Shown: one piece after another, positions 8,847-41,833 of the stretch
How positions within the stretch are numbered: the first letter of the stretch is position 1
Layout of the letters: each line of letters begins with the position of its first letter
NCBI GenBank assembly: GCA_017452265.1
Contig: JAFTMS010000007.1
Location: 85,485 to 149,484, forward strand
Reading direction: 5' to 3'
From: Bacteroidales bacterium
GTDB lineage: Bacteria > Bacteroidota > Bacteroidia > Bacteroidales > UBA932
DNA length: 64,000 nt
Translations under genes and position numbers: made by a program
The notes under the pieces: generated by a model
The model's database searches: none
Seen by the model: only the letters and a program-made list of their open reading frames with translations
Told to the model about the DNA's origin: nothing

Positions 8847-11800
8847 CTAATGTACATCCTGCGAAGATAAGGATTTTTTACGATATTCGGACGGTGAACA
8901 GCCGAACTCTTCCTTGAAATGGCCCGCAAAGACCTTAGGAGAGTTGAATCCGACCATATAGGCGACCTCGGAAATGTACACTCCGTCCGTCTCCAGCAGC
9001 TGTGCAGCCTTCTTCAGACGCAGGGCCCTGATGAACTCGACCGGCGTCTTTCCCGTGATGTAAAGCAGCTTCTTATAAAGGCTTGCCCTATGCATGTACA
9101 AAGCCGCAGAAAGCTCGGCCACGGAGAAATCCGGATTGCTTATGTTCTCGTTTATTACGTTTATGGCCTTCTGCAGGAGACGATCGTCCATCGATGTCAG
9201 CGTAATCTGCTCTGTCGTTATTTCAAGTTCCTTTTCGAAAAGGCGCTTCGAACGCTTCTTCCACTGGATGAACTTCGCAATGCGCAGACGCAGGATGGAC
9301 ATGTTGAAAGGCTTGGTGAGATAGTCGTCGGCTCCGGATTCGAGGCCGTGGCATTCATCATCACGCATCGCCTTGGCAGTCAGCAGAATAACAGGTATAT
9401 GAGACGTATTTATGTCCGACTTCATCCTTCGGCAGAATTCCGTTCCGTCCATCACCGGCATCATGACGTCACATATGACCACATCCACATCGTTGGCCTC
9501 GACTGCCTTCAGGGCTTCCGCTCCGTCACAGGCATACAGGACATTGTACTCATCGCTCAGTGAGGCGCAGAGAAAAGTCCTGAAATCGTCATTGTCGTCC
9601 ACTACGAGAACCGTCGGACGCCCTTCGACGGCAGGAACATCAGCAGGAGAAGCCGTCTCCGTCACATCCTCGTCATCAACCGTTTCCGCGCTTTGTCTCT
9701 GCACCGGGAGGGTGAAAGAGAATATGCTTCCGGTCGGTTCATTGTCACGCACCGAGATGTCGCCACCATGAAGCTGGATGAACTCACGCACCACATGCAG
9801 GCCGATGCCGCTTCCTGCAGGACTGCCCTTCGACTGATAGAAACGGTCGAAGATGCGGTGCCTGTCCTTTTCAGGAACACCGCAGCCTGTGTCACGCACT
9901 TCCACAGCCACATGATCCTGCCCGTCCATATGGACATCGACAGTAATCGCACCTCCCGACGGAGTGAACTTGAAGGCGTTTGAAAGCAGGTTCGTCAGCA
10001 CCTTGACAATCTTGCCCTGATCGAAATCGAATACAAGGGAATCAATATCCGACACCACGGAAAGAATGACAGACTGGCTTTCTGCCATCAGACGGAAGGA
10101 ATCGGAGGCATCACGGACAGCTGATATGAAATCCGCCGACGCAAGGTTCAGATCCGTTCCGTACATCTCTATCTTTCTCAAGTCCAGGACTTCATTCACG
10201 AGATTCAGCAGCCTTTGGGCATTGCGGTGCACAGTCATCATGAAGGCATCCTCGCGAAGCTCGGGATTCTTTGCAAGCTTTTCCTCAATCGGTGTAAGAA
10301 TAAGCGTGAGCGGCGTTCTGAAATCGTGGCTGACGTTTGTAAAGAACTGCATCTTCATCTCATCGAGATAATGCCTGCGTTCCTGCTTCATGGCAAGTTC
10401 CCTCTGACGCGCATCCATCCTTCTGCGTCTTCTCACCATGAGAGAGGCGAAGCATAGCAGAGCCGTGCCGGCCAGCACGTACAGGCAGATGGCCCACCAT
10501 GTCTTCCACCACGGGGGCAGGATACGGATGTCCAGAGTGATTCCTCTGGACGAATCACTGATGTCCGGAGTCAGGCAGAGCCGGTATTTTCCGGGACTCA
10601 GGGACGTGAATGTCAGACGGTTGAGATTCTTGTCCGTAGTGATCCATTCGTCGGACAGGCCTTCCAGACGGTAATACAGGTTGCAGTCCTGCACGGAAAA
10701 ATAGTCCAGATTCGTGAAGTCTACGGATATGAGCGAGGCTTCATGAGGCAATGTCACAGCCTGTGTATATTCCAATGCCTTTTCGAGAATCACATCACCA
10801 TCGTATTCCTGCCCCGGGCGTACAGGCATGCTGCCGACATACAGTCTTGTGAAATACAGTTTTGCTTCGTCATGCGCCATCCTTGCGGAGAGCTTGTCCG
10901 GAGAAAAACGCATCACTCCGCAGAAGCTTCCCATAAGCATGTCGCCGGTTGGTGTCATGCAGGCCGCCTTCTGATTGAAGTGCAGGTCCGGAATCTGCGG
11001 AAAGCTGTAGGAGCTGAAGTCAAAGGCATAGCCATGCTCAGTGCTGCGGAACACATCCACCCGGCAAAGCCCTTTGTCCGTCACCACCCATATTGCAGAA
11101 GAAGCGTCCTCCAATATATCCCTGACGGCCCTCAGAGCAGGATGTGACGGTGTATATACTGCTCCTGAAGCAGGATCATACACCTGCACAAGGCCATCCT
11201 CGTCCATCCAGACGAGCCCCCTTGAGTCCACATGCACACCCGTCATGTTTTCGAAGGCCAGGCCGTCAGCCGTACCCACGACACGTGAGGTGCATGTATG
11301 GGAATTGAATATCGTAAGTCCGTAGGCTGTCGCCAGATATATATTGCCGTCCGGAGCGCAGTCCAGATCCAGCACATAATCGTTTGAAATGCCGTGCGTG
11401 GCACTGACAAAAGTCCGGCACGATCCATCCGCCGGATTGAAGAGCTGAAGGCCGCCTCCCAACGTCGCAAGCCAGATGCGGCCTGAAGCGTCGTGGTCGA
11501 TCGCCCATATGTTCTCGGAGGCAAGCTGCCCGGCTCCGCTGCGGTCATAGTCGTATGTACGCATCCTTCCGTTCTCCATGCACGTCAGTCCGCCATAGAA
11601 GGTGCCTATCCACAGCCTACCGGCATTGTCGCAATGGATGTCCGTGATGACATTGCTCGCAAGGGCACTGTTCGCAATGTTGTAGAGCCTTTCCGTACCG
11701 TCCGCAGGATTGTACCTTATCAGTCCGTAACCATCGGTTCCGAACCACTGCATGCCTCTGGAATCTTCGCAGGATGCATTGATGTCGTCCGGAAAGCTAT

Positions 11801-12836
11801 AGTCGTGAAGTGTCTTCAGATGCGACAGGGACCATGTCCGGTTGTCGCCCCGCCATATCGAAAGGCCTTTTTTGGTATATCCCACCCATATATTGTCCTG
11901 ACTGTCACGAAAGAGGGCGTATACACCGTTGCTGGCCAATGTATTGGCATCGTCAGGCACATTCTTCAGCCGGTGAAGGACATCTCCGCGACGGCTGCAT
12001 ATCGTGATTCCGCCGTGATCGGAAGCAAGCCAGACATTCCCATCGGCATCTTCTAAAATCGCACAGATGAAGCCCCCGGATATGTTATGGTCGCGTGATT
12101 CCTCTGAGTAACGGATTGTTTCAGAACCGTCCGAAGGCAGCATCCACACTCCCCTTGCGCCCTGTGAAAGCCACATGTTACCTGCCGAATCCGCAAAGAC
12201 ACAATGGAATCTATGGTCAGTACTGCCCTCAGGCACTTCCACAGGAGCCTTGATGACATCCAATGCCCGTATCCCGTCCGCTCCATAGGCATACCTGTAT
12301 ACATCGCCGTCCGCACATAGCAAATACGTTATTCCGTTAGTGCAGAAGATGTCATACGGAGTTCCGTCCACCCGCCCGGCCTCCAGCGTCTGTCCGGTTC
12401 CGGCCATCCTTACCTTGAGGATTCTGTTGTCCGTCCACCACAGATTGAATCTGGAATCTATCTGCACGACATCCAGCCATGTCGAGGCGCCAAGCTCGGC
12501 AGCAGCCTCCTGTTCGGTACCGATACGGCAGGTCTGAGGATCATATATTACAAAGCCGTTACGCTTCTTCGTCCATATCCTGCCCTGAGCATCCTGCTGT
12601 ATGTCCTGAAAGGAATCGCCCTCACATATCACGTCCTGCTCCAGCACATGGCCACCCATGCCTCTGTAAAGTCCGTTTCTCGTGCCTATCCAGATAAAGC
12701 CGTCACTGTCCTGAAATATGCTGTTGATCCAATGGTTCGGGGTCTGGACATGTTCAAACAGATAATTTCCTGCCTCCGCGCGCATCAGGAACGGCAGAAG
12801 CAGGAAAACTATGATAGAGACAAATCTTTTCATCAA
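8847..12836 (-). CDS. Hybrid two-component regulator (HTCS) of PUL 1
   Basis: A 1329-residue one-protein signalling system. A signal peptide is followed by a periplasmic beta-propeller sensor made of Reg_prop repeats (e.g. DGFIWIGTRNGLYRG, repeated WIGT/WLA blocks, about 25-680) and a Y_Y_Y domain. A membrane helix lies near 780-800. The histidine kinase has its phospho-His in SHDFRTPLT near 837, an ATPase N-box LTNLLSNAFKFT and G-box DTGCGVPEKDR. A receiver follows (VVDDNDDF near 1078, phospho-Asp in ICDVMMP), then a C-terminal AraC-type DNA-binding domain. It starts 26 bases after the GH5 stop on the same strand, so it may be the last gene of the operon it controls, giving feedback. Confidence 0.95.
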   Translation of the reverse strand: MMKRFVSIIVFLLLPFLMRAEAGNYLFEHVQTPNHWINSIFQDSDGFIWIGTRNGLYRGMGGHVLEQDVICEGDSFQDIQQDAQGRIWTKKRNGFVIYDPQTCRIGTEQEAAAELGASTWLDVVQIDSRFNLWWTDNRILKVRMAGTGQTLEAGRVDGTPYDIFCTNGITYLLCADGDVYRYAYGADGIRALDVIKAPVEVPEGSTDHRFHCVFADSAGNMWLSQGARGVWMLPSDGSETIRYSEESRDHNISGGFICAILEDADGNVWLASDHGGITICSRRGDVLHRLKNVPDDANTLASNGVYALFRDSQDNIWVGYTKKGLSIWRGDNRTWSLSHLKTLHDYSFPDDINASCEDSRGMQWFGTDGYGLIRYNPADGTERLYNIANSALASNVITDIHCDNAGRLWIGTFYGGLTCMENGRMRTYDYDRSGAGQLASENIWAIDHDASGRIWLATLGGGLQLFNPADGSCRTFVSATHGISNDYVLDLDCAPDGNIYLATAYGLTIFNSHTCTSRVVGTADGLAFENMTGVHVDSRGLVWMDEDGLVQVYDPASGAVYTPSHPALRAVRDILEDASSAIWVVTDKGLCRVDVFRSTEHGYAFDFSSYSFPQIPDLHFNQKAACMTPTGDMLMGSFCGVMRFSPDKLSARMAHDEAKLYFTRLYVGSMPVRPGQEYDGDVILEKALEYTQAVTLPHEASLISVDFTNLDYFSVQDCNLYYRLEGLSDEWITTDKNLNRLTFTSLSPGKYRLCLTPDISDSSRGITLDIRILPPWWKTWWAICLYVLAGTALLCFASLMVRRRRRMDARQRELAMKQERRHYLDEMKMQFFTNVSHDFRTPLTLILTPIEEKLAKNPELREDAFMMTVHRNAQRLLNLVNEVLDLRKIEMYGTDLNLASADFISAVRDASDSFRLMAESQSVILSVVSDIDSLVFDFDQGKIVKVLTNLLSNAFKFTPSGGAITVDVHMDGQDHVAVEVRDTGCGVPEKDRHRIFDRFYQSKGSPAGSGIGLHVVREFIQLHGGDISVRDNEPTGSIFSFTLPVQRQSAETVDDEDVTETASPADVPAVEGRPTVLVVDDNDDFRTFLCASLSDEYNVLYACDGAEALKAVEANDVDVVICDVMMPVMDGTEFCRRMKSDINTSHIPVILLTAKAMRDDECHGLESGADDYLTKPFNMSILRLRIAKFIQWKKRSKRLFEKELEITTEQITLTSMDDRLLQKAINVINENISNPDFSVAELSAALYMHRASLYKKLLYITGKTPVEFIRALRLKKAAQLLETDGVYISEVAYMVGFNSPKVFAGHFKEEFGCSPSEYRKKSLSSQDVH

Positions 12837-31642: not shown

Positions 31643-33142
31643 TTATCTTATCTCACCGATTTCATCTGCAGGTATTTCCCAATCATCTGTTCTGAATGGC
31701 ACAAGAGGCTGTCCCATTGTTGTCATAACGTTTGCGTCCTTAGGGAAATTACAGAAAGCGTAACGAACTGCAACAGGTTCAGGAACGTGTTCCGACCAAA
31801 CCTCTATTCTGTTCTCCCACCAACGGTAGTTGGCCTTAGCTTTATGCCACACCTTGTCAGCTCCCGCGATTTCAAATCCATCCGGAGTGCAATAAGCATT
31901 CTTCGCATATCCTTTGAAACTGTCCGGATCGTTCCATTCATATTTCTTTGACAGATTTTCGAAACTGAGCACAAGCATGTTTCCACGCCTTTCATCATTT
32001 ATAAGTTCCATCTCCTTATAACGTGGAGCAGGTCTTGGCACACCTCTCAGTCCATAATCATTAGCTAAAGCAAGATAGGCAAGGCGCTCCGCCACCTGTA
32101 TTTTCTCAGACGGATGTATGCAGGTCCGGTTTCCAAGATCGGTCGTAGCAGCAATTCCGGAATATGGAATTTCCTTCATTGCCTGATATTGAGCCTCAAT
32201 GACCAACGGCAGTGAGCGGAGGCCATCACCTTCGTAGGTATATGGAGCCAACTGAGTGTAATAGAACGGCATTTTGTCATCACCCCATATATTTCTCCAA
32301 AATTTAACAAGAGAAACCATCAGATTCTTATAGTCAAACCAATTATGCCTGTTAGAACATCCCTGATACCAGATAAAGCCCTTTGCCGTGAAATCCTTTA
32401 TCGGATGGATAAGTCCGTTGTATAATTTCTGTGGAGCGCTCGTATCGCCTTTACCGCTTTTCGCAATTTCATGATTGATTCCTTCAGTTGCATCAATAGC
32501 CTCTTCAGTCATCCAGCATTCTATACGGCTTCCACCCCAATTCGCAGAAATCAGTCCCACAGGAATTCCACCCAGAGCCTTTGTCAATGCCTTACCAAAG
32601 AAATATCCCACGGCAGAAAAAGAGCATACACTCTGTGGTGTTGAAACTTGCCAAGTGCCTTCACAATCGGCCTGAGGAACGTCATTCGATACACGAGGCA
32701 CGTTGAAAAGGCGGACATTCGGGGTTTCTGACGCTGCATAAAGAATTGCTTCTGATGATCCTTCAACAGGCTGATACATGAAACCGCATACCGGCATCTC
32801 CATATTCGACTGGCCGCCACATATCCACACCTCACCGAGAAGGATATTGTCAAGAACCGTCTTCTTTCCATCACTGAAAGTGATTGTATAAGGACCGCCG
32901 GCCTCTCCTGTAGCCACCTTCAGGCTCCAAGAACCATCATCAGCAGCCTTCACCTTGTACTTTTCTCCATTCCACGAAGTCTCTACAGTCACGGTCTTGC
33001 CGGCTTCTGCACTACCCCATAGATTCACCTCAGTATTGCGCTGAAGCACCATATTGCTTCCCAAAACGGAAGGAAGCTTCACCTCCGCCTGCATAGCAAA
33101 CGGCAGAACAGCCATTACAGCCAAAATAAACAACTTCTTCAT
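31643..33142 (-). CDS. Sialate O-acetylesterase-like protein
   Basis: 499 residues with signal peptide (AMQAE). The N-terminal sandwich (VLGSNMVLQRNTEVNLWG) is followed by an SGNH core with S112 in CGGQSNMEMP and His in TCIHPSEK. It is a secreted esterase, expected to remove O-acetyl groups, for example from sialic acids that cap mucin glycans. It is paralogous to 22161-23612. It starts the three-gene esterase/GH97 tail of PUL 2, separated from the rest of that PUL by the A+T-rich island. Coding is intact. Confidence 0.9.
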   Translation of the reverse strand: MKKLFILAVMAVLPFAMQAEVKLPSVLGSNMVLQRNTEVNLWGSAEAGKTVTVETSWNGEKYKVKAADDGSWSLKVATGEAGGPYTITFSDGKKTVLDNILLGEVWICGGQSNMEMPVCGFMYQPVEGSSEAILYAASETPNVRLFNVPRVSNDVPQADCEGTWQVSTPQSVCSFSAVGYFFGKALTKALGGIPVGLISANWGGSRIECWMTEEAIDATEGINHEIAKSGKGDTSAPQKLYNGLIHPIKDFTAKGFIWYQGCSNRHNWFDYKNLMVSLVKFWRNIWGDDKMPFYYTQLAPYTYEGDGLRSLPLVIEAQYQAMKEIPYSGIAATTDLGNRTCIHPSEKIQVAERLAYLALANDYGLRGVPRPAPRYKEMELINDERRGNMLVLSFENLSKKYEWNDPDSFKGYAKNAYCTPDGFEIAGADKVWHKAKANYRWWENRIEVWSEHVPEPVAVRYAFCNFPKDANVMTTMGQPLVPFRTDDWEIPADEIGEIR

Positions 33143-33178
33143 GATAACATATTGTTAACAAATTATTTACAAACTAAA

Positions 33179-33568
33179 TTATTGTATTCCATTCTGTTGT
33201 TGCAGGAAAGTCTCTACCATTTCTTTCCGCTCAGAACGACTTACCATTTTAATGGTATTATTCATATGAGCAATATTCCAACACATCACATCATATACAA
33301 TAGACGGATAGCCCATACTGACGACATCATCCCTATCTATTCCAAGTTTGAAGCGGCGTCCATGTACCTCTACGTTTTTCAGCATCGTATTAAAAATACT
33401 GTCCCTCAACGGCAAATCGTCAACAGGTTTCATAATGTCTCCTTCAAACAGGCCCAATTCGCGCATATACATGGCATACTGTTCATCATTAATGACATTA
33501 TCATCACTTCTACAGCATCCCGCTGTAAAAAATATTGAAATAGCAACTATTATAAATACCCGTACCAT
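33179..33568 (-). CDS. Small lipoprotein of unknown function
   Basis: 129 residues. The lipoprotein signal VFIIVAISIFFTAGC ends at the lipobox Cys, followed by CRSDD. The mature part is acidic then basic, with a helix-rich end (SRSERKEMVETFLQQ); no motif is recognised. It overlaps the upstream lipoprotein gene by 19 bases, so the two are coupled. This lies in the A+T-rich island and ends close to the SASA esterase start on the same strand. Surface or periplasmic location is expected. Confidence 0.7.
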   Translation of the reverse strand: MVRVFIIVAISIFFTAGCCRSDDNVINDEQYAMYMRELGLFEGDIMKPVDDLPLRDSIFNTMLKNVEVHGRRFKLGIDRDDVVSMGYPSIVYDVMCWNIAHMNNTIKMVSRSERKEMVETFLQQQNGIQ

Positions 33569-34254
33569 GAGTATGTTCCTCCATTTGAATCTGATGTAGT
33601 AAATTGTATTGTTCCATAAGTATTAGACGCTGCAATCGCCACACTGAGATTCCCATTTCCCCAACGTCTGGCGGAATGTACTCCACCGAAGAATTCTGTT
33701 CTAACTTCACTCCAACCAACCAAAGCAACATTACTAAAACAATGTCCATTAATACCTTTCATACCGTTAGGAGCAAAAATTGAGACTCCGCCAGGGACCC
33801 CAAGTGTAGCGGAAATGGAACCACTCGGCATTGTCACGGTTTGCTCTTGCCGAGTCTTAAGAGACGGCAAGACTACTATGGAAGTCGTACTATAAGTACA
33901 ATCGTCTATATGCCATTCATTAATATTCGGATCATTTTCCCAATTTGCGATATCCTGCAATATCTGCTCATTTGCCAAATGCAATTGAGCATCCATATAA
34001 TTATAGCTATCAAGAGAGTACCCTAATTCTATCGCTTCTTCTAACGAGATTTTTAGTCTGTATTGATAGTTGTCGAATTCTATATACCCAGCCTCTATTA
34101 TTTTCAATGCCTCGTATTCTGTCTCTTGAAGAGATTTAGTAAGCACCATTCCATGGTGTTTTGGAGACTCCATCATAGATAATTCCTCAAAAACATCCCT
34201 TGTACATGACATTGATGCGAATACAATAAAAATAAACAAAAAATGTACTTTCAT
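33550..34254 (-). CDS. Lipoprotein of unknown function, 234 residues
   Basis: Start taken at 34254 (MKVHFLFIF), giving signal and lipobox FASMSC. The mature protein has a helical first half (LKIIEAGYIEFDNYQYRLKI to EQILQDIANWEND). Its second half is Gly/Ser-rich and likely beta (SGSISATLGVPGGVSIF, NGHCFSNVALVGWSEVRTEF, TSDSNGGTYSWYGYL). I recognise no family. The C-terminal half could be a small secreted beta domain. It sits behind a TAACTTTG element and leads the two-gene unit with the 129-residue lipoprotein, apparently as a companion of the cassette at 34612-39985. Confidence 0.7.
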   Translation of the reverse strand: MKVHFLFIFIVFASMSCTRDVFEELSMMESPKHHGMVLTKSLQETEYEALKIIEAGYIEFDNYQYRLKISLEEAIELGYSLDSYNYMDAQLHLANEQILQDIANWENDPNINEWHIDDCTYSTTSIVVLPSLKTRQEQTVTMPSGSISATLGVPGGVSIFAPNGMKGINGHCFSNVALVGWSEVRTEFFGGVHSARRWGNGNLSVAIAASNTYGTIQFTTSDSNGGTYSWYGYL

Positions 34255-34298
34255 AATCAACGGTAAATTTTAATCAATAGCGCAACACTATCGAAATT

Positions 34299-34306
34299 CA
34301 AAGTTA
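34299..34306 (-). promoter_or_regulatory. -7 element (TAACTTTG) with adjacent inverted repeat
   Basis: TAACTTTG on the minus strand lies 45 bases before the ATG at 34254. Directly upstream, ATATCT-CTA-AGATAT (34310-34324) is a perfect inverted repeat that could be an operator. Confidence 0.45.
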
Positions 34307-34324
34307 AAAATATCTCTAAGATAT

Positions 34325-34611
34325 TACGACTCGTTATAATCCGCACCTTTCGGCATATTCTACCTTATCAAATCGTTTATGCTTTATGTCCCAAGAGTGG
34401 CACGGTTCCGCAAAACGGACTTTCAAGTTAAGTCTCCATACGGTCTCTTGTGTCAGGCTAACCTCATTATCGGCCGTGATTTTGCATAGTAATTTTCTAT
34501 TGGTTATACGTATTGACAAGGGTTTCTGTTATAGGGGTGGCCTCCTTCCCCTTTAACTCCTACTAACAACTACGTATGCTGTTTTATTTATCTTCTACAA
34601 CTCGCATTGTA
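34325..34611. other. Intergenic stretch without a supported gene
   Basis: A 61-codon minus-strand frame (34519-34334, ending KVEYAERCGL) starts with TTG and has no clear ribosome site or family, so I leave it unannotated as a gene. It could be a decayed fragment. The stretch marks the end of the coupled cassette upstream. No clear terminator hairpin is seen. Confidence 0.4.
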
Positions 34612-36213
34612 TTACTCCGCATGATTTTGTTCATAAAAGCCAGTTGCGTGATTAACTATTTGCGACACCTCCACAGACGGTACTTTTATCTTTTTGCACA
34701 TAATTTCTTCTGCTATTTTCATGGCATTTTCTATATCACCAAGAGTTTCACACAAATTCATCTTTAGATGCAATGGTCTGAAACGGTTCGGGCACATTGC
34801 AGATGCCATATCGAAACATTCCATTGCACGTCCAAAATCATTCTGTTTCTCAGCAATCAGCCCTAAAAGCAATTGAAGATCATAATCTGCCCATAACACC
34901 TCACACTTTTCAGCGACATCCCGCGCTTTTTCATAGTTTTCAGTATGATATAATGCATAAGCATAATTATAGAGGAAAAATCTATCCGTATTTTTCTTTG
35001 CATAAAGAGCTTCATATTGCTGAAGCTGCTCTTCTCCATATTGCCTAGAAGCAACTATTTCAGCCCACTGCAATTCCGAGCGAATTCGAGAATTATATTC
35101 ATAAGAAAACCAAATTGTAACAGCAAATATTATCAACGCTACCATACGCTTCACATGAGCATTCAACTCCGAAAGACGTTGCACGAACGGGGCATCATGC
35201 AGCAGTATAGCAATCGAATATGCCACAACAAACCATGTAAAAGGATATTTAAACGGATATGAAAACATTGCAAATACAACTACAGAAAGAAACGATAACA
35301 AAGCGACCAATTTCTCCGGGCATCTGTCGGCAAAATACCTTTTCAAGACACATACCCCTAAAACACATAAAGCGAGCACCGGGAAAATACCAAAAGAAAC
35401 CCACAAATACAACAACTCATTAAATGGATGCTGTATATTATCAGCCAACATCATCCATTTTTCATTGGGATTATCCGCCAAAAACGCTGCCTGACAATTC
35501 ATATATTCCGCCGCAAATCCACCACGTCCCATTCCCCATAGCCAATTATCGCGAATCATATCAAACGTAACATTCCATATAAGCAATCTTCCTGACGCCG
35601 AATCCATCTTAGTATACATATAAGCAGCCAGCAACAAGACCCAGGCTATTATAAGGCCCCATTTAGCAACAGAACGTTTGGTTATGAATTTATGCCCACC
35701 AAAAATCAGGATTATAAGCACGCTTAACATTCCAGCACGAGAGCCAGACAACGCTATTGCCAGAAACATGACAAAAAAGACTATCTGGGAAGCCCCGCGA
35801 AGAATTTTATTGGCAGCAATCATACCATATAAAATAAATGGCATCATAAACACGAGAGCAGAGGCGAACCCAGCCGGGTTGTCAAAAGATCCAGTAATTC
35901 TGAACCGACCGACTGATGGGATCAAACCTTTATTCTGCAAAAGCCCATAGACTGACATGAAACCAGCAACGGCAACAAATGCAACTATCATTGTAGCCAT
36001 ATTTCCGAATATGCGCAACCGGCCAGGACTTACCAATGTCTGCACGCAATTTAATAGTACCACAAACAGAATCCAGGCAAACAAGCAAATCCATTTGGGT
36101 GCAAGAGTATATTCAACGAACAACGATGAAGAAATACAAGTCAAGCCCAATATTATAATCAAACATACAGGGAAATCTGCATATTTTTTAAAAGTTCCTG
36201 CAGTCAAGTTCAT
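34612..36213 (-). CDS. O-antigen ligase/polymerase-like membrane protein with TPR tail
   Basis: 533 residues. About ten membrane helices fill residues 10-375, with the large periplasmic loop typical of the Wzy/WaaL (O-antigen ligase, PF04932) family containing GRLLIWNVTFDMIRDNWLWG and WMMLADNIQHPFNELLYLW. The His in IQHPFNE matches the position of the conserved catalytic-region His. The C-terminal 150 residues are TPR-like helices (YNYAYALYHTENYEKARDVA, LLLGLIAEKQNDFGRAMECF). The family joins or transfers lipid-linked glycans, sometimes to proteins. It starts 3 bases after the transglutaminase-like gene and ends the coupled cassette. A role in glycosylating a cassette lipoprotein is possible but unproven. 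Confidence 0.85.
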   Translation of the reverse strand: MNLTAGTFKKYADFPVCLIIILGLTCISSSLFVEYTLAPKWICLFAWILFVVLLNCVQTLVSPGRLRIFGNMATMIVAFVAVAGFMSVYGLLQNKGLIPSVGRFRITGSFDNPAGFASALVFMMPFILYGMIAANKILRGASQIVFFVMFLAIALSGSRAGMLSVLIILIFGGHKFITKRSVAKWGLIIAWVLLLAAYMYTKMDSASGRLLIWNVTFDMIRDNWLWGMGRGGFAAEYMNCQAAFLADNPNEKWMMLADNIQHPFNELLYLWVSFGIFPVLALCVLGVCVLKRYFADRCPEKLVALLSFLSVVVFAMFSYPFKYPFTWFVVAYSIAILLHDAPFVQRLSELNAHVKRMVALIIFAVTIWFSYEYNSRIRSELQWAEIVASRQYGEEQLQQYEALYAKKNTDRFFLYNYAYALYHTENYEKARDVAEKCEVLWADYDLQLLLGLIAEKQNDFGRAMECFDMASAMCPNRFRPLHLKMNLCETLGDIENAMKIAEEIMCKKIKVPSVEVSQIVNHATGFYEQNHAE

Positions 36214-36216
36214 AAG

Positions 36217-38121
36217 CTACTTCCAATTTATTTCATTACAATGTGTAAATATACGATGTTGACGTCCTCTATTAAGACATTTTATATATAATAACGCATA
36301 GCGTGGTACATCGTGAAACTCCACATATGAATCTACGGCAGTCATTGTTTCATGAAGTTCCCAGCTCCTTCCTGTATTATAATAAAGTTCATATCTATCT
36401 CCAGGAAACACATCATTACCATCGCCACGACGATAATATATCACTTTACCCAATGTAACCGGATAAACAAAATCAAAAATCACTGAAACAGAAACGTCAT
36501 CCGCTTCTATACGAGAAAATGTCAAAGGATCGTCATCAATAAGTCGCGCATGATTGATATAATAAGAAGTCTGAGACTCCTCCCAAAGTACTTTCGGGTA
36601 AAGGCGCTTACCGGAGTGATCGTAAAAGCACAATTCAGCAAAATCACTCGGCTCTTTAGCATTTACCGATAAGCTATAATATCTATATGAACCTATTTCT
36701 TTGACCACTATACTACCAGCAAGAGCTGATGGGAAATCAAAAATCTTATCAGGAGTCTTGTCATTGCTACCATCTAAACCATACAAAGTTCCTCCGCTCA
36801 GAAATGAACGTATACCATAAACATCAGCAGACCGCGGATATTTTCTGGTTATAATAAGTGACGACTTATCGGTCGAATCCATCGAATAATAATGGACTTC
36901 ACCATTTAAAGACAACTCAAACGGGCATGAAACCTGCTTGACTCTGTCATGGGCATACTCTACCAGACAATATGTTCCGCCTACTGCAACGTCAGCAAAC
37001 TTAAGAGTTCCTTTACGGTTAACCGCAATATCCACCGGAATCCAATCGTAATCATCAAATACAGCAAGATATAAGTATTCATGTTTAGAATCCGTGTGCA
37101 ATTCGAACTCTGCAACTCTACAATACTCGGCAGTGACATCTGTCGTAAATATATACTCCAATGATGGTGGCAATTCAATTCCGGCATCACATGCTTCTTT
37201 TAAAATCTCACGAGGTTTCCATGAGAAACGATAAACTTTAGGCATACGATAGTCATTTTTGCGAAAATATCCTGGATATGCGTCATTGGGATCCAATGGT
37301 TCGAAAGCTTCAGGAGTTCGTGTCGAATTCAAAATGTTAATCCAATAATGCACACCATTACGATTCATCCAGTTCGGAGTGTAATCTATGCTGGCAGGTA
37401 TTCCATTTGCCCTACAGTACATAAGTTCTAAAGCTGCCTTTTCATAGCAATCGGCATACGGAGCATTTAAAATGGCTCGCGGCACAAGCACAGGTATAAT
37501 ATCCAAATGAGAATAAGATTTTACATTTGTGTTCCGGACAATATAATCATGCAATCTCATATATCCATGTCTCACACTATTTTCAAACAAAGAAATCTCA
37601 TTCCAAAGCGTATCAGACGACCAATCTATCACAGAATAATCTTTCCAATCATCCAACATCTGCCCTTCGAGACACTTATATGGCAAAACATATTCACAAA
37701 ACTCGTCAAAATTCAGATGCTGTAGATATTCTCCGGTTTTCCAACGTACAAAAGCCGCATCAATTTGCGAGATAAGATAATCCTCCGTCAACAATTCCTC
37801 ATCATTTTTTAATCTGATCTTTCCGACATATTTACGAAGAATTTTATCCGCTTCTTCACGCAACGAGGGCTCATCAAGATTTAACAAAAACAGCGAATCT
37901 ATGGCATTACAATAATCACAATATGGTACAATTTCAAACGACTGATGATACTGCATATTCTCAATAAGATATGCAGCAGCCGCCTGTTTCATAGGCTCAC
38001 AAATATAATGCGCGATTACATTCCGGTATAATTCATTCTGTTTAGCCGGAGGACAAGAATTCAAATGTGTAAATAAGACAATTAAAATGACAAGTAATCT
38101 TATTCTATAAGATACCATCAT
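36217..38121 (-). CDS. Transglutaminase-like lipoprotein with C-terminal sandwich domain
   Basis: Start 38121 chosen because its ATGA overlaps the stop of the DUF1573 frame; a second ATG follows directly and another lies 12 bases upstream. About 634 residues. The lipoprotein signal ends HLNSC. The transglutaminase-like core shows Cys near 224 (APYADCYEKA), His near 258 (NGVHYWINI) and an Asp in FEPLDPNDA, a complete-looking triad. The rest is beta-rich, and the last ~150 residues resemble a discoidin-like sandwich (DPLTFSRIEADDVSVSVIF, WELHETMTAVDSYVEF). It is expected in the periplasm or at the surface, as a cysteine protease or cross-linking enzyme. The next gene, the O-antigen-ligase-like one, follows by 3 bases. 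Confidence 0.8.
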   Translation of the reverse strand: MMVSYRIRLLVILIVLFTHLNSCPPAKQNELYRNVIAHYICEPMKQAAAAYLIENMQYHQSFEIVPYCDYCNAIDSLFLLNLDEPSLREEADKILRKYVGKIRLKNDEELLTEDYLISQIDAAFVRWKTGEYLQHLNFDEFCEYVLPYKCLEGQMLDDWKDYSVIDWSSDTLWNEISLFENSVRHGYMRLHDYIVRNTNVKSYSHLDIIPVLVPRAILNAPYADCYEKAALELMYCRANGIPASIDYTPNWMNRNGVHYWINILNSTRTPEAFEPLDPNDAYPGYFRKNDYRMPKVYRFSWKPREILKEACDAGIELPPSLEYIFTTDVTAEYCRVAEFELHTDSKHEYLYLAVFDDYDWIPVDIAVNRKGTLKFADVAVGGTYCLVEYAHDRVKQVSCPFELSLNGEVHYYSMDSTDKSSLIITRKYPRSADVYGIRSFLSGGTLYGLDGSNDKTPDKIFDFPSALAGSIVVKEIGSYRYYSLSVNAKEPSDFAELCFYDHSGKRLYPKVLWEESQTSYYINHARLIDDDPLTFSRIEADDVSVSVIFDFVYPVTLGKVIYYRRGDGNDVFPGDRYELYYNTGRSWELHETMTAVDSYVEFHDVPRYALLYIKCLNRGRQHRIFTHCNEINWK

Positions 38122-38416
38122 AGTACATCGCATTTTAGATTTATGATTGACAACGGTTGTTGAACGGCATCCGAGAATACATATATTTCACGCCTAAGTT
38201 CTCCTTTTCTATCCGGAATAAACTTAAAGCCTAATACGAGTTCATTGCCGGGATATATTTCATACGAATGATTTTCATGTAAAAGCTCCACACATGAACA
38301 ACTTGTTCTGATATTTTAGACATTTCAGAAAATGGAGCATTATATAATATACTTTGCTTACACGCACTGACCATTAATAGTGTCAAAAATATGTTAAAGA
38401 GCCTTCGCATTTTCAT
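38118..38416 (-). pseudogene. DUF1573-type lipoprotein, frameshifted
   Basis: The ATG frame gives a lipoprotein signal (MRRLFNIFLTLLMVSAC) and stops after 61 residues. From about 38310 the next frame encodes a clear DUF1573 ending: TSCSCVELL, then YEIYPGNELVLGFKF, then REIYVFSDAVQQPLSI, stopping at 38118. Only about 20 residues separate the lipobox Cys from CSC, fewer than usual, so a small deletion plus frameshift is likely. The stop overlaps the next start by ATGA, so coupling would survive only if the shift is bypassed. A sequencing error or a programmed frameshift cannot be excluded. Confidence 0.65.
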
Positions 38417-38760
38417 TTATCTGTATTTTGTTGTAAAACACCATCTTGTATAAGTTCATCACGGAGACGGTAATATGAATCAAGAAGCAATCGTGACTCC
38501 ATGATTTCATCATTAGCGTCTCGTATAGATTGGACTTCAGACACAGATGATTCATCTATCTCTTCAAAAATCACGTTCAAGACTTCATCATCTAATAGTT
38601 GCCGCGAAATCCATGTATAAGAAATTCCCTTTGCATCCAGCCCGCCAAGATACAAAGAGTATTTTCCCTCTTTATTTGTAATTATCACATTTACAGAGCC
38701 ACTTTCAATCGCGGCGTTGGCAGAAGAGGAAACAGATGATAAAACAGCAAATCCTTTCAT
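38413..38760 (-). CDS. Small cassette protein B (MKGF type), unknown function
   Basis: 115 residues, no signal peptide, acidic. Start 38760 overlaps the previous stop by ATGA. It begins MKGFAVLSSVSSSANAAI and carries GKYSLYLGGLDAKGISYTWI, LNVIFEEIDESSVSEVQS and a helical tail YYRLRDELIQDGVLQQ. The layout matches the gene just upstream (MKGF start, beta-rich middle, F.E.D.S acidic strip, helix ending in a Leu/Val pair), so the two are diverged paralogues. Cytoplasmic location is expected. I recognise no family. It could be an adaptor or chaperone for the secreted partners. Confidence 0.75.
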   Translation of the reverse strand: MKGFAVLSSVSSSANAAIESGSVNVIITNKEGKYSLYLGGLDAKGISYTWISRQLLDDEVLNVIFEEIDESSVSEVQSIRDANDEIMESRLLLDSYYRLRDELIQDGVLQQNTDK

Positions 38761-39095
38761 AACAATCCTTTTTCTTTCAAGAAGTTTTCCAATTGACGAA
38801 AGGAGTCCAGTTTCGACATAGGACATCTAATACTTTCGTCTGTAACACTTTCCATTGGAGTGGATAATTCATCCATTTCTGCAAACTTAATCTGGAAACT
38901 ATCTTTCACATTCATCGGAGTAAATTTTTGCCAGATATTACGTTGTTTTGCATCATAATCCACACTATCAATCATCACAAAATTACGTTCCCCCCGACCG
39001 GCATTCTGATAATGAAGATGAATTGTACACAAGCCACCGTCTTTCACACCGACTTTAATACTCTGTCCTTTTGATGTAATAACAAATCCTTTCAT
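38757..39095 (-). CDS. Small cassette protein A (MKGF type), unknown function
   Basis: 112 residues, no signal peptide. Start 39095 is fixed by its ATGA overlap with the Cys-tailed lipoprotein stop; an in-frame ATG 15 bases upstream is less likely. It begins MKGFVITSKGQSIKVGVKDG, with NVKDSFQIKFAEMDELSTP in the middle and a charged helix (KLDSFRQLENFLKEKGLL) at the end. It is paralogous to the next gene. The pattern suggests a small beta domain followed by a helix that could bind a partner. No catalytic residues are recognisable. Confidence 0.75.
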   Translation of the reverse strand: MKGFVITSKGQSIKVGVKDGGLCTIHLHYQNAGRGERNFVMIDSVDYDAKQRNIWQKFTPMNVKDSFQIKFAEMDELSTPMESVTDESIRCPMSKLDSFRQLENFLKEKGLL

Positions 39096-39985
39096 GCTGT
39101 AGAACCACATTGGTGTGTATTATACGGCGGCCAGACTCCTTGCGTCAAACAATATTCCAAGCATTTTGAACATCCATCAGGAATTGGAGAAAAACAACGT
39201 TCGAATTGTCTCTGGCAATACTCGAAATTTCCATTGGATATCGATGATTGTGTTTTACACACAACAACTTCATAATATAAAATTCCAGCAATTACGACAG
39301 TTGCAATCGAAGCGACAATCTCCCCAGTAGGCGTAGGCTCACCAACTGCAATCGTCCAAATTGTCTCTAACAGAATACGACAAGTCGCCCCATCGGAAGC
39401 TTCACTCCTTGTCTTAATCCTTTTCAGCCCGCTATTAGGAGTTGGCACCATAAGGCCACTTTCTTCCAAATACTGAAGTTCTTGGGCTCCATAGTATAAA
39501 GCTGCAATAACGTTTTGTAAGCGTTCTTGCTGTATTTCCGGGACATAAGTCAATATTTCATCCGCAAGACTTGAGAGACGAAACATCATATCACCATAAG
39601 ATGTACTGCTTGCACAATCATCGACAATACGATTGATATACTGAATCTGTATTTTCGTTAACGTCTTATAAGCAGTAATGAAATCTTGTGGTGACATAGC
39701 ATAAGACTCTTTTCCGACCGTATTTTTCGTAACCGGGATAGGAACAATCTGTGATATATCATTGAAATAACGCTGCTGAAATTCCACAGACGCATCAGCA
39801 TCAGAATAATCTATACCCATTTTGTGTAAAGACACACCAATAAGACGAATATCCGAGGCAACTGCTTTTCCAAAAACCACCGAGGTCTCAGACAATTTCT
39901 CTTCAATTGATTCCGATGATTCATAGCGTGAACATTGGCAAAACAATGTCAATAATAACACAAAGGTAAAATGGTATTTTTTCAT
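39092..39985 (-). CDS. Lipoprotein with hydrophobic segment and Cys-rich tail
   Basis: 297 residues. Lipobox Cys in LTLFCQC near residue 19. A helical body (about 30-185) is followed by a basic stretch (LKRIKTRSEASDG) and a hydrophobic segment rich in small residues (EIVASIATVVIAGILYYEVVV). The tail then has seven Cys in about 57 residues (EYCQRQFERCFSPIPDGCSK and onward). I do not recognise the family. The Cys-rich tail after a hydrophobic helix suggests a secreted or surface structural protein or peptide carrier stabilised by disulfides. It is the first gene of the coupled cassette. No exact TAnnTTTG is found upstream, though 40040-40049 is a palindrome (AGGAATTCCT). Confidence 0.7.
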   Translation of the reverse strand: MKKYHFTFVLLLTLFCQCSRYESSESIEEKLSETSVVFGKAVASDIRLIGVSLHKMGIDYSDADASVEFQQRYFNDISQIVPIPVTKNTVGKESYAMSPQDFITAYKTLTKIQIQYINRIVDDCASSTSYGDMMFRLSSLADEILTYVPEIQQERLQNVIAALYYGAQELQYLEESGLMVPTPNSGLKRIKTRSEASDGATCRILLETIWTIAVGEPTPTGEIVASIATVVIAGILYYEVVVCKTQSSISNGNFEYCQRQFERCFSPIPDGCSKCLEYCLTQGVWPPYNTHQCGSTA

Positions 39986-40105
39986 ACGTACAATTCGTTA
40001 TAACGTGTCTATAAACAGGGGCTTCATAAATTCACAAACAGGAATTCCTAAAACAACCAAGTAAAAGGCAAGCTCTTTTGGAAGTTTAAATCCGAAATGA
40101 GAATT

Positions 40106-41833
40106 TTATTGCTCTATGACGATATTCTTGCAGTGATGATGGACGAAGGAATTCTTTTCTTCGAATGTGTAAGGGTAGTCGTCGGTCATCTCTATAGTGT
40201 TGTTGCGGAAAGTCAGGTCTTCGACGCTGAAGAGATTGAGGATGCGCGGATCAAAGACACGGAATGTATTGTTCTCAATAAGAATTCCCCTATGATAGCC
40301 GCGTTCTGCCTTGTCAAGCTCCGGAATGCGTGTGCCGACTGCGATGCAGGCTGCTCCCCATGTAGGATATCCGAAATTACCGTTTTCAAACACATTGTTG
40401 CGGATGATCACTTCACGTACGCCGGCCTGCTCGAACCAGAAGTTTCCGTCTCCCTCAAAAAGGATGGCCGCTCCCGGAATATGGAAATAGTTGTCTTCGA
40501 TGACCATGCGTCCCCTCGAGCCAAGAAGAAGGCCTCGAGCACGGTTTCCGGCCATATGGCAGCCCCTTATGATCACATCAGGATATTCTTCATCTGCTGC
40601 GACGACCATATTCCTTTCCACTCCTTCAGGAAGGGCCTCCTCAAACGTTACGACCGTAGCTATCTTATTCAGACGCTCCACTTCCTTTACAACGGCATAG
40701 CAATATGTGTCTGTGGTCTTCTGATCGACAATTTCCACCTTCATGCCCGGCTTCACGAAATCCACTCCGTATTGTCCTGAATTGCGCCACTTGAGCACAA
40801 CCTTGTCAGGAGCAAGAAACTCATCTACAGCCATATAAAGGCCATGGATATTTGTAGCATCATCCTTCTGGTTGCAGAAAGTACAGTCCAGCATACGGAT
40901 ATACCCGGCACAGTTCACATAATGCGTAGCATCGGCCGTAATACTGATCATGCGGCCTTTCCCCGGAGACGGTACCACATCAACATTCATAAGTTCGATG
41001 TCGCGGCTGCGCTGGGCGATGACGCCCATACCTCCGCAGTGCCAGATGTTCACATTACGGATCCACACTTCATCGCTGTCTGATATGAAGAAGGCCGGAT
41101 TGTAACGGGCAGCAGCACCAAACACCATAACATTGCCGACAGTCCCCTTCAGATCGTGACGTTTGATGCGAACAAGATTGCTTTCAAGTTTTTCTGCCTG
41201 TATGGTTCTCTTTGAAAGCCAGTAGTCAGAAGCAAGGAAAGCCGGTTCTCTCTTCTGGGAATCAAACTCCAGAAGGTTCGAGAAATCGTATGTTATGTTG
41301 TTTTCATCGGTAAAATACAGGCATCCGTTCACTATGTTGCAACGGTAGTCCTCCGGAAAACGGATGTCCAGATATCCGTCCCCTACTTTTTCAATGATAC
41401 CTTCGGAATGGAATGTCCTCGTATAGTCAATCGAAAGGTTCTCGATGCGGACGTTTTCACATTCTTCAATGCTGAAAGGAGAGATGAATCCAGTGAAAAG
41501 AAGCAGAGTGTTTTTGCCCTCAACCACGAAATTGTCCATGCCTTCCAGATCGAAAGCAATCCTTTTCAGGCTTTCGGTATTGTTGCTGATGAACTGATAC
41601 TTCTCGTATGCCTGATCCGGCCATATGCGAAGAGTGCCTTCCGGGAGGACAAGACGCGATGCATTCATCTCCCTGCAGACAGCCAAAGCCTCACGGATTG
41701 CCGGCATGGCATCCTTTTCAGCCTGACCTTCCTGAAGATAATCAGCAAGATACACTATCTTTGGATCATTGCTGCATGACGCAGCCGAGGCGGCAAGAAC
41801 CACCAGAACAAACAGCTTTACAATTGTTTTCAT
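40106..41833 (-). CDS. GH110 alpha-1,3-galactosidase (parallel beta-helix lipoprotein)
   Basis: 575 residues with lipobox ASAASC. A right-handed parallel beta-helix body carries the GH110 signature pieces: TADATHYVNCAGYI, KDDATNIHGLYM, NRARGLLLGSRGRMVIEDNY and IPGAAILFEGDGNFWFE. GH110 enzymes remove terminal alpha-1,3-galactose from blood group B or linear alpha-Gal glycans by inversion. It follows the GH97 stop by 13 bases, so both are in one operon. It is expected in the periplasm or on the surface. I do not assign specific catalytic residues. The A+T-rich island begins after its end. Confidence 0.88.
   Translation of the reverse strand: MKTIVKLFVLVVLAASAASCSNDPKIVYLADYLQEGQAEKDAMPAIREALAVCREMNASRLVLPEGTLRIWPDQAYEKYQFISNNTESLKRIAFDLEGMDNFVVEGKNTLLLFTGFISPFSIEECENVRIENLSIDYTRTFHSEGIIEKVGDGYLDIRFPEDYRCNIVNGCLYFTDENNITYDFSNLLEFDSQKREPAFLASDYWLSKRTIQAEKLESNLVRIKRHDLKGTVGNVMVFGAAARYNPAFFISDSDEVWIRNVNIWHCGGMGVIAQRSRDIELMNVDVVPSPGKGRMISITADATHYVNCAGYIRMLDCTFCNQKDDATNIHGLYMAVDEFLAPDKVVLKWRNSGQYGVDFVKPGMKVEIVDQKTTDTYCYAVVKEVERLNKIATVVTFEEALPEGVERNMVVAADEEYPDVIIRGCHMAGNRARGLLLGSRGRMVIEDNYFHIPGAAILFEGDGNFWFEQAGVREVIIRNNVFENGNFGYPTWGAACIAVGTRIPELDKAERGYHRGILIENNTFRVFDPRILNLFSVEDLTFRNNTIEMTDDYPYTFEEKNSFVHHHCKNIVIEQ

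Follow-up and report, generated by a model that had tools for sequence, protein, structure and literature searches.

Proteins whose activation by C11 proteases has been described include BcpT, a lipoprotein toxin encoded on a Phocaeicola plasmid, which is reported to be cut after Arg in two LTR motifs (PMC9308784), and Fab1 of Bacteroides fragilis, which is likewise reported to be activated by fragipain, a C11 protease (PMC8406203). Here we describe a gene cassette in a 64,000-nucleotide stretch of contig JAFTMS010000007.1 from a Bacteroidales genome (hereafter the window; positions are counted from its first letter). The cassette encodes a probable prolipoprotein with a Cys-rich tail (CysLP), two small proteins (MKGF1 and MKGF2), a transglutaminase-like lipoprotein (TG) and a membrane protein with an O-antigen-ligase-like domain (LIG), and it lies on an island of low GC content inside a polysaccharide utilization locus (PUL). 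We tentatively favor the reading that the island was acquired horizontally and serves to make and export a small, disulfide-rich, bacteriocin-like peptide. We infer that the cassette would then be a variant, with its presumed mechanism, of a kind that is already known, namely proteolytically released bacteriocin-like lipoproteins. An earlier note on this DNA had not recognized the cassette as a described system, and we likewise found no description of such a system in the open-licence literature.

The cassette has been inserted into the PUL. GC content is 35-41% from 33 to 40 kb, compared with 46-51% in the 28-33 and 40-46 kb regions. In a genome of the same genus (G368, locus L215), the two PUL genes that flank the island have homologues (71% and 72% identity; 9264-10763 and 10766-12481) just 2 bp apart. 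This empty site is seen in one genome because, of the three same-genus genomes searched with one flanking gene as the query, only G368 held a close homologue. That the island was acquired horizontally is part of the reading introduced above and is just as tentative; an exact-word search of the island ends (140 and 180 bp) revealed one 10-bp inverted match as the longest repeat. The PUL context given in the earlier note was correct, with GH97, GLAA-B-type, SusC/SusD-type, sialate-esterase and GDSL genes surrounding the cassette. We do not favor a function tied to this particular PUL, since the G368 operon lacks the island. SusC/SusD, fucosidase or arabinofuranosidase genes do lie near the TG/LIG cassettes of two plasmids (L216 and L217, below), as they do in the window, and this observation weighs against rejecting a link to the PUL. 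A phage or defence origin is also not favored: there was no PADLOC match at E≤0.1, and the only PHROG matches were of unknown function at E 0.008 or worse. CysLP had no match in phages or viral contigs, and LIG had none in viral contigs.

CysLP has a two-part architecture. Its structure model consists of a helical pro-domain, a linker at residues ~183-199 and a core; the model is weak, with a mean predicted local distance difference test (pLDDT) score of 60, and had no PDB match. The sequence KTRSE (residues 191-195) is located directly ahead of the core, in which the first cysteine is residue 202. All eight core cysteines are invariant across the four CysLP homologues, one of which (L189) carries the core without a pro-domain (64% identity over 87 positions). 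The N-terminus of CysLP is hydrophobic and contains Cys16 and Cys18; the residue at -1 of Cys18 is Gln, and the homologues have Asn-Cys or Tyr-Cys. Sequences of the TRSE type are enriched around TG and LIG: TRSE was found in 7/105 unlabelled lipoproteins near either gene, in 0/216 other lipoproteins and in 1/630 other proteins, with 0.18 expected from shuffling, in a count for which the word was chosen after examples, since the window, L071, L081, L188 and L189 proteins counted had suggested it. A 225-aa L189 protein that has TRSE was left out of this count, and the L065 proteins have GGSE or SGGE in place of TRSE. Two more Cys-containing lipoproteins of the L189 cassette (L189:5299-6075 and L189:10609-11286) carry VRTRSE or IVTRSE before hydrophobic, Cys-containing tails.

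BcpT and Fab1 suggest two features to look for, an Arg cleavage site between the pro-part and the core and a C11 protease in the producer genome. A candidate site of this kind is present in the CysLP sequence, and the genome from which the window comes has a Peptidase_C11 match over the cut-off (E 3.1e-21). CysLP may be cleaved at KTR/SE. CysLP, MKGF1 and MKGF2 reach the cut-off of no Pfam or NCBIfam family, and fulvocin C-related proteins (NF033852) were not among the NCBIfam matches listed for CysLP up to E 10.

The genes of the cassette co-occur in other genomes, the point on which the earlier note had staked its proposal: CysLP and MKGF genes with a nearby LIG recur in three further Bacteroidales loci, L065, L188 and L189. 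L065, from a metagenome-assembled genome of Prevotella sp., has TG, a DUF1573-type gene, CysLP, four overlapping MKGF genes (two extra ones before the MKGF1 and MKGF2 types), DUF1573, a fulvocin C-related protein, TlpA-like proteins and LIG. L188 combines a DUF1573-type protein (by a profile built here) with CysLP, MKGF1, MKGF2, a small AAA ATPase and LIG. In L189 there are a protein matching the DUF1573 profile, the core-only CysLP, two MKGF genes that follow CysLP after a 71-bp gap, a thioredoxin-like protein (by eye), LIG and TG. All four loci with a strong CysLP, including the window, have MKGF behind CysLP as well as a LIG, and an MKGF pair also accompanies LIG and TG in Parabacteroides faecis (L069). 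A two-row CysLP profile matched only the genome of the window among 393 genomes of the order. Among 373 Bacteroidaceae genomes, a four-row profile had strong matches in just two, G613 and G731, which carry L188 and L189, themselves rows of that profile; two more matches at E 0.006-0.007 were dropped as chance-level. On plasmids, the window CysLP and MKGF2 queries had no match.

TG and LIG recur far beyond CysLP. TG relatives are present in 55/393 sampled genomes of the order of the window (its own genome counted), and a scan of named genomes confirmed at least 535 relatives among at least 595 stretches. Neighborhoods were tallied with a simple open reading frame (ORF) caller and profiles built here for the best of these confirmed relatives, kept as 79 distinct loci, and neighbors in representative loci were verified by Pfam. 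LIG and TG were at most six same-strand genes apart in 44/79 loci, and in 23/31 of those with complete flanks; by gene rank from TG, the LIG rate was 20/149 at rank 1 and had dropped to 2/63 at rank 9. Within the same distance, 32 of the 79 loci had propeller-like, 22 DUF1573, 22 NVEALA-like, 19 S26 peptidase and 3 MKGF genes. Among 72,556 plasmid records, the window TG found a relative in 6 and the L217 LIG found a relative in 5, all of them among the 6 with TG. These five TG- and LIG-bearing plasmids are from Bacteroides and Phocaeicola, and two were recorded from human samples. The annotated order on the P. vulgatus plasmid NZ_CP096966.1 (L216) is NVEALA, six-bladed propeller, redoxin, signal peptidase I, O-antigen ligase, hypothetical protein and transglutaminase; on the B. 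finegoldii plasmid NZ_OY725911.1 (L217), it is TG (discoidin), DUF1573, fulvocin C-related bacteriocin, TlpA, several genes, an MKGF pair and O-antigen ligase.

Other TG loci differ in their company. L033:8580-15394 (G259) is one run of TG, a radical-SAM/SPASM protein, an 86-aa possible precursor, a daptide-metalloprotease-like protein and LIG, with the radical-SAM/SPASM and metalloprotease-like proteins scoring under the cut-offs of the specific maturase models; this content again points to peptide maturation. In L112, L118, L119, L121 and L092, clusters of TG, LIG and S26 peptidase (type A, below) are followed by genes sized like an RND efflux triad (~350, 1010 and 495-615 aa; a likeness by size only). 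In L037:8231-13975 and L055:9962-17890, TG is beside FtsX-like permeases and an ABC ATPase, which by eye resemble a peptide exporter.

A tree of 55 LIG proteins, built without the two-ORF L189 ligase and without the plasmid ligases, contains a clade A of 22 members (support 0.989) and a clade B of 14 that includes the window (support 0.892); inside clade B, nearest relatives cannot be told with confidence (supports 0.024 and 0.462). An S26 peptidase accompanied 18/22 ligases in clade A and 0/14 in clade B, a propeller 20/22 and 1/14, and a TR/SE-like protein 0/22 and 7/14 (Fisher p 1.6e-6, 5.8e-7 and 4e-4, respectively, which overstate the difference because related sequences are not independent). 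S26 proteins >350 aa were excluded from this tally, which drops one of 473 aa beside the L188 ligase. The remaining 19 LIG proteins had none of the S26, NVEALA-word or TR/SE features. There are two cluster types: type A has NVEALA proteins, propellers and a signal peptidase, and in type B, to which the window belongs, Cys-rich prolipoproteins bear a KTR/SE-like site ahead of their C-terminal domain. Profiles built here found no NVEALA, propeller or S26 peptidase among the window genes at 30-42.5 kb. Some prolipoproteins of the window type are annotated as fulvocin C-related bacteriocins, in L065 (NF033852 E 4.6e-32) and, by annotation, on the plasmid L217.

TG scores 25.5 bits with the Pfam family Transglut_core (cut-off 23), and C225 and H258 are invariant in 19 sequences. 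The 19-row TG family profile matches structures of the carbohydrate-binding modules CBM62 (E 5e-27) and CBM32; against the same structures the window TG alone had no such match, the relation appearing with the 19-row profile only.

MKGF1 and MKGF2 form separate classes in a tree, and the order MKGF1-MKGF2 is kept in the window, L188, L065 and L146. The second MKGF of L189 matches MKGF2 pairwise, yet falls outside the MKGF2 class in the tree. MKGF genes were found in 7/393 genomes of the order and in 17/379 Bacteroidaceae genomes. The MKGF2 model (pLDDT 87.8) is a seven-stranded protein with a long helix; the MKGF fold had no PDB match, which is not evidence of a new fold. In L146:6640-9973 (G259), a tandem array with eight MKGF profile matches is followed by a small AAA ATPase, with no TG, LIG or CysLP label in the stretch read, and a relative of this ATPase is found beside MKGF in L149 and L188. 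On the plasmid L217, a 48-aa MKGF fragment (L217:15306-15452; profile E 4e-4) upstream of the MKGF pair suggests gene turnover within the cassette.

The layout of the cassette is partly as the earlier note had it. The four ATGA start/stop overlaps (39092-39095, 38757-38760, 38413-38416 and 38118-38121) are present in the sequence, and the TG stop (36217-36219) is separated by 3 bases from the LIG start at 36213. Overlaps of 4 bp occur at 4/28 same-strand window junctions, all four in the cassette, in a list compiled by hand that covers part of the window genes and enters the broken DUF1573 stretch as one gene. The coupled genes are real, and the gene order needs two amendments: what had been called a DUF1573 lipoprotein does not form one open frame, and the cassette extends further, to two extra lipoprotein-like genes (U33550 and U33179; Table 1). 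Two of the four overlaps flank a remnant, because the DUF1573 gene lies broken across two frames: one ORF runs from 38416 to a stop at 38231, and the other frame opens at 38291 and ends at 38118. The latter piece, of 57 aa, scores 18.7 bits with the DUF1573 profile built here, over the last ~40 positions only, and neither the ORFs nor this profile revealed an intact DUF1573 (PF07610) domain in the island. The start of TG is ambiguous (38133 or 38121). Fixed stoichiometry of a complex, which the earlier note had read from the coupling, is not supported: DUF1573 is broken here, and MKGF genes are also found without the remaining cassette. U33550 had no match in Pfam, PADLOC or PHROG, a single NCBIfam match at E 0.19, and no relative at E≤0.001 among the called genes of the searched loci; U33179 had no Pfam match at E≤1 and no relative among the called genes searched. 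That the two are paralogues is unsupported (blastp E 0.25).

Table 1 Features of the island, by position in the window.
Feature	Positions	Strand	Basis
Low-GC island, 6,963 bp, between GLAA-B-type gene (40106-41833) and sialate-esterase gene (31643-33142)	33143..40105	-	GC; empty site
CysLP, probable prolipoprotein: helical pro-domain, linker, Cys-rich C-terminal core	39092..39985	-	297-aa ORF; homologues in L065, L188, L189 (core only)
KTRSE motif, putative Arg-specific cleavage site (CysLP residues 191-195)	39401..39415	-	Sequence
Cys-rich hydrophobic core, eight cysteines (CysLP residues 202-297)	39095..39382	-	8 Cys invariant
MKGF1, small protein, no visible signal peptide, first of conserved pair	38757..39095	-	Profile family A3/A5; tree class apart from MKGF2
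MKGF2, small protein, seven strands and long C-terminal helix	38413..38760	-	Structure model
DUF1573-type lipoprotein gene remnant, two pieces in different frames	38118..38416	-	ORFs, profile; open genes in L065, L188, plasmid L217
TG, transglutaminase-like lipoprotein, F5/8- or CBM-like C-terminal region	36217..38121	-	Transglut_core E 1.7e-5
LIG, Wzy_C (O-antigen-ligase-like) membrane protein, tetratricopeptide repeat (TPR) tail	34612..36213	-	Wzy_C E 8.7e-15; TPR; ligase-tree clade B
U33550, second probable lipoprotein, SLKTRQE before Gly/Ser-rich C-terminal domain	33550..34260	-	ORF
U33179, small lipoprotein-like ORF, 19-bp overlap with U33550	33179..33568	-	ORF

If the island does encode a bacteriocin-like peptide, CysLP would be exported as a lipoprotein whose helical pro-domain tethers and protects the hydrophobic eight-Cys core. 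The cut at KTR/SE that frees this core would be made by a C11-type (clostripain) protease, Arg-specific and located at the surface; the core itself would most likely be a bacteriocin-like, membrane-active peptide. Once freed, it would be handled in the envelope by TG and LIG, acting as a conserved module. Thiol chemistry would be aided by DUF1573/TlpA-type proteins, of which the island has a remnant and other loci have open genes. MKGF1-MKGF2 may be a cytosolic two-subunit partner that provides immunity or acts as a pre-export chaperone; the immunity role is a guess from gene order.

Several observations weigh against this model. DUF1573 is broken in the window, no TlpA-like gene was seen in the window island or beside the L188 CysLP, TG was not found in L188, and the L189 LIG is divided between two called ORFs. 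The core need not be the better-conserved part: between the window and L065, identity is 32% in the core and 42% in the pro-domain. In the model, pLDDT falls below 50 at core residues 214-232 and 241-251 as well as in N-terminal stretches, which leaves these segments of the core no more certain than the linker. CysLP reaches the curated cut-off of no bacteriocin family, and the post hoc choice of TRSE described above belongs here too. Among 18 MKGF regions from 17 Bacteroidaceae genomes, two hold the cassette and 16 are without CysLP, LIG or TG by these profiles; some regions reach contig ends, and the MKGF gene is uncalled in L191, L195, L196, L198 and L203. Finally, BcpI, the immunity protein for BcpT, is described as a lipoprotein (PMC9308784), unlike MKGF.

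TG-LIG clusters could instead be non-antibacterial, their Cys-rich peptides being displayed or released to serve in sensing, adhesion or matrix building; we consider this rather unlikely. Such a role would suit the larger family, ligase clade A, which couples TG and LIG to NVEALA peptides and propellers, and also the annotated stretch L216, which names no bacteriocin; the carbohydrate-binding-module matches of the TG family profile and the SusC/SusD or glycosidase genes that lie close to the cassettes of the window, L216 and L217 point the same way. Regulation that is not toxin-specific is suggested by B. thetaiotaomicron, in which BT0662 (O-antigen ligase family) and BT0664 (six-bladed propeller), two loci apart, are reported in an iron-dependent stimulon, with no surrounding system described in the accessible text (PMC10434189); that they belong to a type A cluster is a guess. 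Fulvocin C-related proteins in L065 and on the plasmid L217 argue against this alternative, as do the MKGF genes directly behind the prolipoprotein and the L146 MKGF array, which fits partner genes in a stack better than it fits one structural role. We also think it quite unlikely that the island is decaying cargo, a once-mobile cassette that is losing genes here and has no current function. The DUF1573 gene in two pieces fits such decay, although an assembly error could mimic the break, given that the assembly is a single incomplete genome (84.5%). Against decay, CysLP, MKGF1, MKGF2, TG and LIG are all open frames as long as those of their relatives, and they keep both their overlaps and their invariant residues.

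The earlier note had envisaged an envelope system that processes and glycosylates the Cys-rich lipoprotein, and the part of this proposal that stands is an envelope process centered on a Cys-rich prolipoprotein. A glycoprotein system in which LIG glycosylates this lipoprotein and TG cross-links or trims it now seems improbable. LIG does score 55.2 bits with the Pfam family Wzy_C (cut-off 31.7), R159 and R209 are near-invariant (54/55 and 53/55 sequences), and its profile weakly matches the solved oligosaccharyltransferase 9rmk (E 0.0083, domain E 0.1); elsewhere, 21/31 PglL genes are reported to adjoin pilin genes, their likely targets (PMC3643930). At the same place, however, 9rmk has His-Asn, while the residue before the conserved Asn of LIG is F in 44, L in 3, Y in 3 and P in 2 sequences and His in 0/52 (the alignment has 55 sequences, 3 of them without this Asn). 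WaaL H338 is reported to be important and conserved as PglL H349 (PMC3643930), and this histidine would correspond to the LIG column before the Asn. Glycosylation is therefore possible but unsupported. In addition, no sugar-synthesis or flippase gene was recognized among the island genes.

A broader proposal, which we regard as doubtful, is that these clusters are undescribed peptide weapons of the Bacteroidales, in which a mobile TG-LIG maturation module, its Wzy/PglL-like LIG lacking a catalytic-type His, serves two exchangeable substrates: NVEALA peptides via a dedicated signal peptidase (type A), or TR/SE-cleaved Cys-rich prolipoproteins (type B). MKGF pairs and arrays would provide cytosolic immunity, also as orphan arrays. 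If the reading favored here holds, it ties two sets of secreted proteins without known function (NVEALA with six-bladed propellers, and Cys-rich prolipoproteins) to one mobile module and gives the Cys-rich prolipoproteins a predicted cleavage site, making a role in competition or signalling directly testable. TG is in 55/393 genomes of the order and TG with LIG on five plasmids, yet the open-licence literature yielded no description: we found no mention of NVEALA there, and no paper pairing any two of fulvocin, NVEALA, 'transglutaminase domain-containing protein' and 'O-antigen ligase family protein'. A survey of ribosomally synthesized and post-translationally modified peptides in Bacteroidales (PMC10352776) gave no match to the terms of the system.

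Compared with described systems, LIG shares the Wzy_C domain and two arginines with PglL and WaaL, and differs in its TPR tail and in lacking His before the conserved Asn in the aligned sequences. Comparison with BcpT and Fab1 is by description only. Like CysLP as read here, BcpT is a lipoprotein precursor cleaved at Arg by C11 proteases, and it is plasmid-borne in Bacteroidales; unlike CysLP, it has 499 aa and two cleavage sites, and the accessible text mentions no TG, LIG or MKGF pair. Fab1/RFab1 resembles the cassette in having a secreted antibacterial precursor and a cluster that was likely horizontally acquired (PMC8406203), whereas no Cys-rich core, TG or LIG is mentioned in the accessible text. 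NVEALA (PF14055)/propeller clusters differ from the window in their clade A ligase, NVEALA proteins, propellers and S26 peptidase, but use the same TG and LIG families, often with DUF1573 or a redoxin, and are also carried on plasmids (L216). Fulvocin C-related proteins (NF033852) differ from CysLP in core sequence, and CysLP does not match their family; like CysLP, they have a Cys-rich C-terminal region after a pro-domain and, in L065 and L217, TG, DUF1573, TlpA, LIG and MKGF as neighbors.

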